From the NCBI GenBank assembly GCA_020444175.1, contig JAHLLM010000001.1:186001-250000 (forward strand): a stretch of DNA of 64,000 nucleotides. The letters run 5' to 3'. Below the pieces are notes generated by a model. That model saw only the letters and a program-made list of their open reading frames with translations, was not told the DNA's origin and ran no database searches. This DNA is from Desulfobulbaceae bacterium. GTDB lineage: Bacteria; Desulfobacterota; Desulfobulbia; Desulfobulbales; SURF-16. This document shows positions 7,664 through 18,411 of the stretch, piece by piece (position 1 is the first letter of the stretch; the number at the start of each line of letters is the position of its first letter). The translations under genes were made by a program, and so were the position numbers.

Positions 7664-7698
7664 CCTCCATATATTGAGTGCGCCACCATATATGGAGG
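7664..7698 (+). promoter_or_regulatory. Tandem inverted repeats, module B
   Basis: Two 16-bp dyads, CCTCCATATATTGAGT (7664-7679) and CCACCATATATGGAGG (7683-7698), separated by 3 bp. Their midpoint lies about 127 bp upstream of the GC of the sigma-54 promoter at 7796-7809. The second dyad is identical to that of module A. Confidence 0.7.
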
Positions 7699-7730
7699 CC
7701 TGGCAGATCCTGCCAGCTTTTTCTTTATTC
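7698..7730 (+). terminator. Rho-independent terminator in module B
   Basis: Stem CTGGCAG (7700-7706) and CTGCCAG (7710-7716) with a 3-nt loop, followed by CTTTTTCTTT. It copies the terminator at 341-373 and was duplicated together with module A/B. It may end the GH13 and discoidin-like transcript. Confidence 0.75.
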
Positions 7731-7795
7731 CTTCACATAAGCTAACGACCTGTTATTAAAGACTAATTTCACCTCAGCTCATATTATAGTCTGCA

Positions 7796-7809
7796 GGCAT
7801 GTTTCTTGC
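7796..7809 (+). promoter_or_regulatory. Sigma-54 promoter, module B
   Basis: GGCATGTTTCTTGC, identical to the module A promoter, with GG at 7796-7797 and GC at 7808-7809. It reads into the deleted ABM gene and the second BON gene. Confidence 0.75.
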
Positions 7810-7825
7810 CATTAGCATTTTCATA

Positions 7826-7975
7826 ATGATCACTGGTCATTATGAAAGTGAAGGTGCCCTCTGCTGAAACACAAGGAGCTGGTTCATGGTGCTGCGTGGG
7901 ACTATGCATCTGCTTGAAGAGCCATGTGAAATTATTTCCTGCAGGCGTTTTCACCTGGTTGACGTACATAAGGTG
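7826..7975 (+). pseudogene. ABM-domain gene with internal deletion
   Basis: Matches the start (ATGATC..CTGGTCATTA) and end (GGTGCTGCGTGGG..GAAGAGCCATGTGAAAT) of the intact gene at 470-766 but lacks about 155 bp between them. In the intact copy the lost part is bounded by two TGGTTCAG octamers (522-529 and 677-684); here they merge into one. The deletion also shifts the frame, and an early TGA ends the reading frame. Only the promoter and leader function may persist. Confidence 0.75.
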
Positions 7976-8050
7976 AGTCAGCCTTCACCCCAGGTGATTT
8001 TAAGATAGACGTTTGGAAAAACAACAAAAAAAAGAAAGGAGAAAGCACTC

Positions 8051-8869
8051 ATGAAACCAATGTGTCGTGTAGCTTTGCTGGTAGTTGCCGTTGCTCTGCT
8101 GGTGTCCGTCGGCCCTGTGCTCGCGTCCGCGACCGGGACGGATGAGCGTATCGAATCAGCGGCCAAGCAGTCGTATGTTTTTAAGACATACCTCAAGGAC
8201 GATGACGTTACAATCGAATCCAAGGATGGTGTCGCCACCTTGACAGGGACAGTCGTAGAAGAGAGCCACAAATCTCTGGCCCAGGATACCGTGGCAAACC
8301 TGCCCGGGGTCAAAAGCGTGGAAAACAAACTGGAAGTCAAAGGTGAACCACTTGCCGAGGATTCGGATGTGTGGGTCAGCATGAAAGTGAAGTCCGCGCT
8401 TCTGTTCCATCGACACGTGAGCGCCATGACTCAGGTTAACACCAAGGCCGGCATCGTAACCCTGCAAGGCGAAGCAGATAGCCAGGCCCAGAAGGATCTG
8501 ACGACTGAATACGTCAAGGATATCGAAGGCGTGAAAGGCGTAGAAAATGAGATGACCCTGCCAAATACAGCCGGAAATCCGGAACAAAAAACGATGGGTC
8601 AAAAAATTGATGCCGTGGGCGAATCAATTGATGACGCATCCATCACGGCCCTGGTCAAGATGACATTACTCTATCATCGCTCTACCAGCGCACTCGACAC
8701 CAGGGTCAAAACGGAAAATGGCATGGTAACGTTGGAGGGCAAGGCAAAAAATGCGGCTGAAAAGGATCTGGCCACAAAATATGTGCAGGATATTAACGGC
8801 GTGAAAAATGTGACAAACAACATGACCATCGAGAAGTCCAAGGAAAAGAAAAAGATGGAGGGCTGTTAA
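8051..8869 (+). CDS. Periplasmic three-BON-domain protein (OsmY-like), copy 2
   Basis: 272-aa exported protein, with the same signal peptide and three BON domains as the protein at 848. The two are identical over about the first 247 residues, down to the DNA; the tail differs (VQDINGVKNVTNNMTIEKSKEKKKMEGC) and is Lys-rich. AAAGGAGAAAGCACTC precedes ATG, also duplicated. It sits behind sigma-54 module B with only the broken ABM gene between. Likely an envelope-stress protein that binds the membrane or cell-wall surface. Confidence 0.85.
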   Translation: MKPMCRVALLVVAVALLVSVGPVLASATGTDERIESAAKQSYVFKTYLKDDDVTIESKDGVATLTGTVVEESHKSLAQDTVANLPGVKSVENKLEVKGEPLAEDSDVWVSMKVKSALLFHRHVSAMTQVNTKAGIVTLQGEADSQAQKDLTTEYVKDIEGVKGVENEMTLPNTAGNPEQKTMGQKIDAVGESIDDASITALVKMTLLYHRSTSALDTRVKTENGMVTLEGKAKNAAEKDLATKYVQDINGVKNVTNNMTIEKSKEKKKMEGC

Positions 8870-11596: not shown

Positions 11597-12291
11597 GAAC
11601 TGTTTTTATTGGAGCCGGAAAAATCAGCATTGAAACAGCAACAGCGCTTATTAAGAAAGGCCATGAAGTCATCATCATTGAGACAGATAAGACCAGAATT
11701 GATGAATTGTCGGAAGAGATGGATTGCAGCTTCCTGCAGGGCGATGGCAGCCACCCCAACCTCCTTCGTGAAGTTAATCCAGAACAGACCGACTTCCTGT
11801 TTTGTCTTACTGACAATGACCAGGCTAACGTCATCGCCAGTCTCGTCGGTCGTTCTCTCGGTTTCAAACGGGTCGTGACGAGCATTGGCGACCAGCAGTA
11901 CGAAGTCATCTGCGGCGAGTTGGGTCTGAAGGACACGATCATCCCCTCCCAGACAATCAGCCGTTACCTGGAAGACATGGTGGGCGGTGCCGAAAACGTC
12001 GAACTTTCCTCGGTTATCAAGGACGAGGCACGGTTTTTCACCTTGACGGCAACCGAGGAAGATACGGTCGCAGCCAAGGATCTGAAATTGCCCCCTGAGG
12101 CTAAGGTCATCTGCTATTACCGTGACGGCAAATTTTCCCATGCCGATGAAGAAACAACCTTCCGCCCTGGAGACGAGATTGTCATTCTGACGCACAGCAA
12201 AAACATTCCCGCCCTGCGAGAGCGCTGGCAGCCGAAGCAAGATCAAGAGAAACCAGCAGGTGTATCCCCAAAAAGAAGAACTAAGGATTGA
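11593..12291 (+). CDS. trkA: TrkA-type RCK protein gating K+ uptake
   Basis: 232-aa cytosolic protein: an N-terminal Rossmann RCK domain (GAGKISIETA, FIGAGK glycine loop; acidic IIETD binding the nucleotide ribose) followed by a TrkA-C domain (about 145-215). ATG 11593 is preceded by AATGGAGGAGAC and overlaps the trkH stop, so translational coupling is likely. It is a single RCK unit, about half of E. coli TrkA, typical of KtrA-like subunits. Its stop codon falls at the first bases of the dispersed repeat at 12290. Confidence 0.88.
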   Translation: MRTVFIGAGKISIETATALIKKGHEVIIIETDKTRIDELSEEMDCSFLQGDGSHPNLLREVNPEQTDFLFCLTDNDQANVIASLVGRSLGFKRVVTSIGDQQYEVICGELGLKDTIIPSQTISRYLEDMVGGAENVELSSVIKDEARFFTLTATEEDTVAAKDLKLPPEAKVICYYRDGKFSHADEETTFRPGDEIVILTHSKNIPALRERWQPKQDQEKPAGVSPKRRTKD

Positions 12292-12392
12292 CGGTTTCGT
12301 AAAAACCCCCTCAACCGCCGCCGACAAGTATGTAACTTGTTGATATTTCTTTGGCGGATGGCCAGCTTGAGAGCTTTTTGCGAGACCATCAA
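12290..12392 (+). repeat. Dispersed ~100-bp repeat with inverted ends, copy R1
   Basis: Begins GACGGTTTCGTAAAAA and ends TTTTTGCGAGACCATC, which are near-perfect inverted repeats, with a core TATGTAACTTGTTGATAT and TTGGCGGATGG. Copies occur at 18312 (reverse), 43394, 43809 and 45561, with partial ones at 49373 and 50458. It contains no gene. It starts at the trkA stop codon. Confidence 0.8.
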
Positions 12393-12471
12393 GGATTAGG
12401 ATCTGAGATTTAATGAGTTGCCACCTTAAATGGTTAGCTGGTGGCCACGCAGCGAAATGGAGATAAATCAT

Positions 12472-12588
12472 ATGGACAGCTGGTTGAATGGTTTAATAAG
12501 TCAAGGGATGTCGATTCTTGCGGGTTTCGGAGTCCTAGTGCTGGTCCTGTTGGTCGTCGTGATCAGCAAAATGTTAAAAAAAAAGTAA
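12472..12588 (+). CDS. 38-aa single-helix membrane peptide
   Basis: MDSWLNGLISQG followed by a 20-residue hydrophobic helix and a KKK tail (positive-inside). AAATGGAGATAAATC gives a plausible ribosome-binding site. It may be a small stress membrane protein like others in the island; it could also be a truncated remnant. No family recognised. Confidence 0.5.
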   Translation: MDSWLNGLISQGMSILAGFGVLVLVLLVVVISKMLKKK

Positions 12589-12621
12589 CCCTGCAAGCAC
12601 AGCATCTTGATCAAACTGACA

Positions 12622-12759
12622 ATGGGGAGACGATTCGATGACCGACCCACCAGAGTTGTGTTCCTGTTTGATGTGGACAACACACTGCTGGACAATGACC
12701 AGGTTGTCGATGATTTAAGGAATCATCAATCACAGTACACAAACCGGGACTTTTGCTGA
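12622..12759 (+). pseudogene. HAD-hydrolase 5' fragment
   Basis: Starts MGRRFDDRPTRVVFLFDVDN and continues TLLDNDQVVDDLRNH, the HAD motif I (DxDNT) and start of the cap region, then runs into a stop after 45 codons. Full HAD enzymes need more than 200 residues. GGGGAGACG near the start may be the remains of its ribosome-binding site. The break joins directly to a lactate dehydrogenase relic. Confidence 0.75.
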
Positions 12760-12880
12760 TTGTATCCAACCCCGTCGATATCTTGATCTATGTTGCCTTT
12801 TTGCCATTGCCCTTGCCGTTGTGAGAATTGTTACCAGTAAACTGCGAGATGAAAACACTGTTCTTACAGTTTCCTCATAT
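12735..12880 (+). pseudogene. Lactate dehydrogenase relic with internal deletion
   Basis: One frame (12735-12797) reads KPGLLLIVSNPVDILIYVA, the NAD-dependent L-lactate dehydrogenase signature; another frame (from 12803) reads AIALAVVRIVTSKLRDENTV then LTVSSY, the segment about 100 residues later in the same family. The middle of the gene, both ends and the frame are lost. It ends near the 3' end of the cardiolipin synthase gene. Confidence 0.75.
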
Positions 12881-12931
12881 GACGAACGAGCAAAAAGTCA
12901 AAAGATGAAGATGGTGGCGCGACCTTCATTG

Positions 12932-14098
12932 CTAATAATTCTTGCCGCCAATTCCTGCCAGACCAAGGAGTAAACGGGCACCCCCATAGGCGCTCCAGTT
13001 GACGATGCGCCGCCACAACGGCTGGCTGTGCAGGGAGTCCGGGTCCACTTTCATGGCGCCACCCTTAATATGCTTGAGAAGACTGGCGCGCAATTCTTCG
13101 GCAAAGCGCGAATCATCGACGATGACGTTGGCTTCACGGGCCAGCAGGAGGCTGAACGGATCGATATTGGAGGAACCGACCGTGGACCAGCGTCCGTCGA
13201 CCACCGCCACCTTGGCGTGTAGGAAGCTTTTATGGTAGCTGTATATTTCGACGCCGGCATCAAGCAAGTCCTCGTACAGGGCACGGGAAGCGTAATACAA
13301 CAGGCTATATTCCATGCGTCCCTGTAAAAGCAGAATGACACGAACGCCACGCCCGGCCGCCAATCGAAGCGCCATCCGAAAACTCTTGCCGGGAAAAAAA
13401 TAGGCGTTGACAATGATGATCTCTTTCCGTGCCCGGTCAATGGCTTCAAGATAGGCGTCTTCGATATCGGAACGATGGAGCAGATTGTCGCGCACTACCA
13501 GAGCGGCGCGCTGTTTCCCGGAAGCGATTGTTTCTGAAATGAGTGGCTGGCGGGTCCGCCAGTTCAATTGGAAATTGAGCAGTGCTATCCGGTCCCACAA
13601 TTTTTCGTTCTCTTCCACGACCATCGCCAACAAGGGGCCCTCGATGCGCACTGCATAATCGTAGCGTATCGGCAGATGACCCGCCGGTGAGTTCATGTCG
13701 TCAATGATATTGATGCCTCCGACAAAGGCCAGACGACCGTCGATCGTCACCAGCTTACGGTGCAGTCGCCGCAGACGGTTTCGCCGTAGCGTGAAGGGAG
13801 ATATCTTCGGATGATAAATCAGCACCTGCACATTGTCGGTCAAGAGCTGCCGACGTATCGTGTCGAATATGTTTTTTGAGCCGAAGCCGTCTACCATAAC
13901 GCGCACGGTCACGCCGCGCTTTGCCGCCCGCGACAGCGCAGCCGCCATGCGCCTCCCGGTTTCGTCGTCGGCAAAGATATAGGTCTCGAGGGAAACGCCA
14001 GTTCGAGCGGCATCGATGGCCTGCTCAAGGGCCAGGAAGTAGGCAGCGTTGTTTGGCAGCAACTGGAGACTGTTGCCGTTAATAAATTGAGGCTTCAT
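12932..14098 (-). CDS. clsB: Cardiolipin synthase B-like phospholipase D protein
   Basis: 388-aa protein with two HKD motifs: His113-x-Lys115-x4-Asp120 (HRKLVTID) and His294-x-Lys296-x4-Asp301 (HAKVAVVD), each followed by a G-N/S-N motif. There is no N-terminal transmembrane pair, as in ClsB/YbhO-type enzymes that make cardiolipin from phosphatidylglycerol with a second lipid donor. The protein begins MKPQFINGNSLQLLPNN. It is encoded against the direction of the surrounding genes. Cardiolipin enrichment accompanies osmotic stress, matching TrkHA and the MscS-like channel. Confidence 0.85.
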   Translation of the reverse strand: MKPQFINGNSLQLLPNNAAYFLALEQAIDAARTGVSLETYIFADDETGRRMAAALSRAAKRGVTVRVMVDGFGSKNIFDTIRRQLLTDNVQVLIYHPKISPFTLRRNRLRRLHRKLVTIDGRLAFVGGINIIDDMNSPAGHLPIRYDYAVRIEGPLLAMVVEENEKLWDRIALLNFQLNWRTRQPLISETIASGKQRAALVVRDNLLHRSDIEDAYLEAIDRARKEIIIVNAYFFPGKSFRMALRLAAGRGVRVILLLQGRMEYSLLYYASRALYEDLLDAGVEIYSYHKSFLHAKVAVVDGRWSTVGSSNIDPFSLLLAREANVIVDDSRFAEELRASLLKHIKGGAMKVDPDSLHSQPLWRRIVNWSAYGGARLLLGLAGIGGKNY

Positions 14099-14608: not shown

Positions 14609-14793
14609 ATGAAACCATTCTAGCTGCTCGCTTCCTTTTTATCGGTCATTAATTTGGTTCTGGCGAGGCAAAGGGCGAGCTGAAAAAATGTCTTGAAAAG
14701 GACGAACTCGGTGCCCGCATCGAGGCGGTCGACACGGAAGACGCGATGACAGATCGCTGGATTGCGGTGAAAGTCCGAGAGTATTTTCAATAA
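14609..14793 (+). pseudogene. Lipoprotein gene relic
   Basis: The leader AAGGAGAATCATCATGAAAC and the next bases match the lipoprotein gene at 3680, but TAG is the fifth codon and the signal-peptide frame is broken. After 14655 another frame (GELKKCLEKDELGARIEAVD..., ending VKVREYF then TAA at 14791) stays open without a start. No family recognised for that tail. Confidence 0.6.
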
Positions 14794-15243: not shown

Positions 15244-15277
15244 CCTCAATTTATTGAGGGTCCACCGTATATTGAGG
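15244..15277 (+). promoter_or_regulatory. Tandem inverted repeats, module D
   Basis: CCTCAATTTATTGAGG (15244-15259) and CCACCGTATATTGAGG (15262-15277), 2 bp apart. The midpoint is about 129 bp from the GC of the promoter at 15377-15390. The first dyad is a perfect CCTCAA-N4-TTGAGG palindrome. Confidence 0.7.
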
Positions 15278-15376
15278 CTAAACCGACTCTGCGGCTCCTC
15301 TCTTCTCGTTGCCTTACTGATCCCGATTCCGTATCAACAAAGATTCTAACATATTAATTGCCCATTCACGTCTCTC

Positions 15377-18186: not shown

Positions 18187-18321
18187 ATGACAAAAGAACG
18201 AAAAAACAACAGGGAAGAAAAAAAGAAATCAAACCTGACTCCGAAAGAAAAGAAGGCTGCCAAAAAATCAAAGAAAGAGTCCAAGAATTTTCTGTCCATT
18301 GATAAAAAGATGAATTCGTAA
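18187..18321 (+). CDS. 44-aa lysine-rich small protein
   Basis: MTKERKNNREEKKKSNLTPK followed by more Lys/Glu; strongly basic, with no hydrophobic segment. CAAAGGAACAAAGAAC gives a ribosome-binding site. The final codons and TAA lie inside dispersed repeat R2, so the natural C-terminus may have been replaced. No family recognised; nucleic-acid binding is only a guess from charge. Confidence 0.45.
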   Translation: MTKERKNNREEKKKSNLTPKEKKAAKKSKKESKNFLSIDKKMNS

Positions 18322-18411
18322 AAAGCTCTGAAGCTGACCATTCGCCTACATAATATCAACAGGTTATAAGCGTGTCGGCGGCGGTTGAGAGGATTTTTGC
18401 GAAACCGTCAA
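18312..18411 (-). repeat. Dispersed ~100-bp repeat, copy R2 (inverted)
   Basis: Reverse-oriented copy: GAATTCGTAAAAAGCTCTGA at the left and TTTTTGCGAAACCGTCAA at the right, with the core ATATCAACAGGTTATAAGCG. It sits between the radical SAM gene block and the SPFH operon. The next 138 bp to the SPFH start show no gene. Confidence 0.8.

Follow-up and report, generated by a model that had tools for sequence, protein, structure and literature searches.

Remnants of two enzyme genes at 12622-12931

The window (the whole 64-kb stretch of DNA that was analyzed) contains, at 12622-12931, the remnants of two enzyme genes, a HAD-type hydrolase and an L-lactate dehydrogenase (L-LDH), within ~300 bp (Table 1); neither remnant is able to encode a working enzyme. 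When 12400-13050 was read in six frames, each of the three plus-strand frames was found to contain one segment: FLFDVDNTLLDNDQVVDDLRNH, KPGLLLIVSNPVDILIYVAF, and ALAVVRIVTSKLRDENTVLTVSS. A sequence-only reading had described a head-on junction of HAD and LDH motifs at 12622-12880. Profile matches bore out the proximity of fragments of the two proteins, and the site itself was correctly placed, although its end was not: the feature reaches ~12931. On the other hand, the HAD piece and both LDH pieces lie on the plus strand, in three frames (those of 12589, 12714, and 12719), and the arrangement is therefore tandem rather than head-on; the neighbor on the opposite strand is the phospholipase D-like ORF.

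Table 1. Coordinates of the HAD/LDH site, its flanking features, and the control scar
Feature	Position	Strand	Remarks
Control scar, copy of region 324-828 (with the ABM-domain ORF) minus 155 bp	7680..8033	+	8-bp direct repeats
Dispersed ~101-bp palindromic MITE-like repeat	12288..12392	+	7-bp flanking duplication (AAGGATT); upstream of HAD relic
38-aa hydrophobic ORF	12472..12588	+	directly upstream of HAD relic; one likely membrane span, by eye
HAD-hydrolase relic, ~residues 6-37, FLFDVDNTLLDN motif	12640..12735	+	profile 38.0 bits, E 1e-10
L-LDH relic piece A, SNPVDIL region	12738..12803	+	20.3 bits, E 2.8e-5; profile positions 107-128 of 310
L-LDH relic piece B, LRDENTVLTVSS region	12797..12931	+	20.3 bits, E 2.7e-5; profile positions 228-272 of 310
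Phospholipase D-like ORF, open	12932..14098	-	PF13091, E 1.8e-42; convergent with LDH piece B

The profiles were made from other loci, with the relic sequences kept out of both: seven HADs out of 14 named loci, and 12 of 20 LDH candidates (LDH/MDH rows, 11 of them distinct, since L050 repeats L002), chosen by text pattern with the rest dropped; the N-terminal extension of one LDH row (L054) is possibly not real. Among six-frame segments of at least 20 residues from the 64-kb window, only the three relic pieces matched these profiles at E≤1, and the best of 1000 dinucleotide shuffles of 12400-12960 reached 8.1 bits (HAD profile) and 9.4 bits (LDH profile). A translated search, proposed earlier as the check on the two identities, found both HAD and LDH, with scores for the locus-built profiles far above the 1000 shuffles, rather than the absence of hits that was to count against them. 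Scores of the pieces in Pfam and NCBIfam scans were weak (HAD, E 0.046-0.11; LDH, E 1e-4 to 0.19) and all under the curated cut-offs, because the pieces are short. The site shows colinear pieces with gaps or frame changes, as in a deletion-derived pseudogene.

The HAD relic corresponds to profile positions 6-37 of 234 (32 positions left), and the rest of the gene is missing: at E≤1, nothing in the window matched positions beyond 37. Motif I of HAD proteins is DxDxT, and their later motifs include a C-terminal acidic pair; the former is present in the relic as DVDNT. With PF00702, the relic scored 13.8 bits, below the curated cut-off of 26.4; for an intact relative of this type the score was 26.8. 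All but one of the 14 named HAD loci gave alignments of 21-31 residues with 56-81% identity. The relic shares the N-terminal motif and flanking residues with a HAD hydrolase of Acidobacteria/Terriglobia and Verrucomicrobia-type MAGs and of Paraburkholderia, Variovorax, and Polaromonas plasmids, but differs from it in lacking the later motifs.

LDH pieces A and B are colinear, in different frames. The best NCBIfam model for both was the NAD-type L-LDH, TIGR01771 (A, E 0.0029; B, E 1e-4), and Pfam gave the N-domain at E 0.051 and the C-domain at E 0.096. Since the two pieces scored only 17.0 and 21.7 bits against a curated score of 303.55 bits, and retain 67 of 310 profile positions, they are a relic of the TIGR01771 kind and not a family member, nor an enzyme. 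The loss of the middle of LDH had been recognized correctly in the earlier reading, and the first 106 and last 38 profile positions are unmatched too: at E≤1, the window held no counterpart of positions 1-106 and 129-227, where the N-terminal region that binds NAD and the GEHGDS segment would lie. GEHGDS, which we take to be the catalytic segment of L-LDH, is visible in a related LDH fragment from another genome (G042; see below). Derivation of the relic from the LDH/MDH genes of the same genome was considered and is not favored: the genome's own L002 was 47% identical to piece A over 15 residues and 49% identical to the G042 fragment, and the latter was 74% identical to piece A over 23 residues.

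Counterparts in other genomes

G025, which belongs to the same order but to a different family, shares 12440-12726 at 85% DNA identity, including the 38-aa membrane ORF. The HAD gene of G025 is likewise disrupted, although the deletion is not the same one: the HAD start is joined directly to the HAD C-terminus, so that the middle of the protein is absent. Compared with this copy, the HAD piece in the window is one base shorter near its start. Similarity at the DNA level stops at 12726, the same base at which the HAD deletion of G025 begins, and a notable coincidence, a hotspot, or an earlier common break are all possible. If HAD had been truncated once before its spread, the two genomes would have inherited or exchanged the broken copy and later deletions would have differed; the common block that ends at 12726 in both genomes agrees with this, but in G025 that base is followed at once by the HAD C-terminus. 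A second deletion in the genome studied here would therefore have to start at the same base, and a deletion hotspot would explain the endpoint equally well. We regard this history as unlikely, albeit as the best of the alternatives. Quite improbable, in our estimation, is that 12726 is a recurrent deletion endpoint, from which two lineages of different families would each have lost a different stretch of a transferred HAD gene behind the conserved 38-aa membrane gene; if true, it would indicate site-specific or structure-driven trimming of acquired genes in stress clusters. In the same region of G025, near the broken HAD (L004:216-608), a partial acetate kinase frame was observed in two stretches, the best of which covers positions 95-175 of 392; this is possibly another relic.

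The 38-aa ORF was 92% identical over 37 residues in G025, with 11 synonymous and 3 nonsynonymous differences, and a 53% match was found in G217; its family matches were weak and below the cut-off (best, NF041738, E 0.017). Over 25 codons of the HAD fragment, 3 synonymous and 5 nonsynonymous differences from G025 were counted, both small numbers. The ORF is probably a live small gene, as judged from its conservation, and the substitution counts, small as they are, would fit a live small gene beside a dead HAD. These counts also bear on the possibility that the fragments have been put to new use, e.g. as a 45-aa HAD-derived microprotein starting at an in-frame ATG at 12622 and co-transcribed with the 38-aa ORF. 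Although the 45-aa frame is open and the flanking ORF appears to be constrained, the HAD piece has only the first HAD motif and the excess of nonsynonymous differences just described (small numbers), and the same fusion was found in no other genome when 257 from the order, the own one among them, were searched with two candidates scored in each. Such a microprotein is very improbable.

Another fragment of a similar LDH was found in G042, with 87% identity to LDH piece A over 60 bp; it sits in a 223-aa frame, and the adjoining ORF is transporter-like, as judged by eye. In DNA searches with 12400-12960, only G025 and G042 were matched outside the own genome among 58 genomes of the order; extending the set to 257 genomes added G126, through 44 bp at the query's phospholipase end, and a 395-genome sample of the phylum gave 37 bp in G577 at the LDH motif but did not list G025. 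The own genome was part of all three sets. Because 2 to 10 candidates were scored in each genome, diverged or short copies may be missed. The intact ldh and HAD genes that had been expected at the syntenic position of relatives were not found as a pair in the 58-, 257-, or 395-genome searches, nor were the two side by side in any of the loci fetched. The G025 stretch with the common block (L004, L007) contained the broken HAD and no LDH match.

When the HAD C-terminus of G025 was used as a query, it was found in one of 249 genomes of the order, G025 itself, the source of the query, and not in the own genome. It was present in 14 named loci, including ten from Acidobacteria/Terriglobia or Verrucomicrobia-type MAGs and one from a Methylobacter MAG, and in 11 plasmid records, eight from Paraburkholderia, two from Variovorax, and one from Polaromonas. 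The G042 LDH fragment matched seven of 242 genomes of the order at E≤1e-40, the own genome and that of the query included, and the best intact LDH listed among these 242 genomes was 55% identical to it. A plasmid search with the same fragment gave 118 records, of which the ten listed were 59-63% identical; a tblastn search of plasmids with the 84-residue frame holding LDH piece B gave nothing at E≤1. Because close intact relatives are lacking in the sampled order, HAD and LDH were both probably acquired horizontally. There was no sign of their having traveled as a pair: an LDH/MDH-family match was detected in 11 of the 14 HAD-bearing genomes, at best 61%, but the LDH query had no match inside the fetched HAD loci.

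The surrounding gene neighborhood

The view that this region once carried more genes, put forward earlier from HAD, LDH, GGDEF, and mutase fragments, was sustained, since all four are partial: the GGDEF piece near 23.9 kb is C-terminal (PF00990 positions 113-161 of 161), and the phosphoglycerate-mutase-type (histidine-phosphatase) piece near 26.56 kb is N-terminal (PF00300 positions 1-24 of 194). Two further relics, which had not been named, are the ABM copy described below and, at 14653-14790, the C-terminus of a 134-aa 'WIDHRK' protein, 67% (G025) and 72% (G042) identical over 46 residues to open full-length frames; Pfam gave no convincing family for the G025 protein. The GGDEF, histidine-phosphatase, and 'WIDHRK' relics support repeated gene loss in the neighborhood. 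The live neighbors encode BON, CsbD, DUF5670, Usp, and SPFH proteins, an FtsH-type protease, a mechanosensitive channel, and a phosphoketolase, and are what we would call stress-type genes; an ice-binding-like protein with a PEP-CTERM sorting signal is encoded among them (1726-2649). No integrase or transposase families were found in a Pfam scan of 24 ORFs, a subset of those at 0.4-26.5 kb.

Repeated sequences were also observed. The starts of two BON-domain genes are identical over 300 bp (824-1123 and 8027-8326), which would reflect a very recent duplication or gene conversion. A leader-like sequence, CCACCATATATGGAGGCC..., occurs at 327-370, 7683-7726, and 15262-15305, each time upstream of an ABM gene or relic; the second and third copies are 91% and 61% identical to the first.

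The MITE-like repeat upstream of the HAD relic has a diverged inverted copy at 18309-18411. With up to three mismatches allowed, its 33-base core occurs 68 times in the own genome (42 times exactly) and the reversed pattern, used as a control, not once. The repeat folds into a hairpin spanning nearly its whole length (z -3.89). An identical 6-7 bp duplication (A...TT) flanked all 20 copies examined (the best copy at each of 20 loci, weaker neighboring copies excluded), compared with 13 of 380 pairings in which the two flanks were taken from different copies. In 57 relatives, including a member of the same genus, nothing matched at E≤1e-6 when up to 15 candidates were scored in each genome. There is no evidence for a role of this repeat in the deletions; the two copies in the window are mutually inverted, and recombination between them would invert, not delete.

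Gene decay and the ABM control scar

A second scar in the window can be compared with an unbroken copy. An open ABM-domain ORF (452-763; PF03992, E 2.8e-12) lies in region 324-828, and in the copy at 7680-8033, 155 bp (522-676) are absent, in addition to small gaps. TGGTTCAG occurs at 522 and 677 in the unbroken copy, and the scar retains one of the two, with one base changed. When 15,000 positions were compared with the base 155 further on, an 8-base match was found at one, the scar itself, and a longer one at none; therefore, this repeat is unlikely to have arisen by chance. The ABM scar is a deletion between short direct repeats. Such deletions arise by slipped-strand or illegitimate recombination, and gene decay by deletion is the general background of bacterial pseudogene remnants.

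The HAD/LDH relics are ordinary gene decay. With the identity, order, strand, and frames of the pieces and the difference of the site between genomes observed directly, 12622-12931 is very likely a composite scar in a high-turnover, stress-type neighborhood, where two separate genes, both probably of horizontal origin, have decayed. At least two deletions are required, one running from HAD position 37 to LDH position 107 and another from LDH position 128 to 228, and the 3' end of LDH has been lost as well. From the ABM copy, we infer that these deletions probably occurred between short direct repeats; the mechanism is not readable at the site itself because no close intact copy is known, and inspection by eye for microhomology, both at 12726 and near 12797, where the sequence is rich in TTGCC, gave no clear answer. 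Short direct repeats are listed among the causes of pseudogene frameshifts in H. pylori, in a passage of PMC3046158.

That the HAD/LDH junction is an assembly artefact appears scarcely plausible: the genome is a draft of 90 contigs, but the block around the HAD piece also occurs in another genome, the LDH pieces are colinear, and diverged, frame-shifted fragments are not expected from a single misjoin. Likeness to HAD and LDH by chance alone, for which the weak scores in general family libraries might speak, can be dismissed, since the three pieces scored 38, 20, and 20 bits, well beyond the shuffle maxima, and match at the DNA level too.

The composite scar resembles bacterial pseudogene remnants produced by deletion in consisting of short, frame-shifted, colinear pieces with the rest missing, and short direct repeat edges, a recognized route to such remnants, were seen here at the other scar in the window. 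It differs from the usual remnants in that two unrelated genes are fused in one 300-bp scar and that one of these genes occurs in another genome as a copy shortened in a different way. The HAD/LDH scar leaves existing knowledge of gene decay unchanged; the ABM copy displays short-repeat deletion at base resolution, and the site documents both gain and loss within a stress-type gene cluster.
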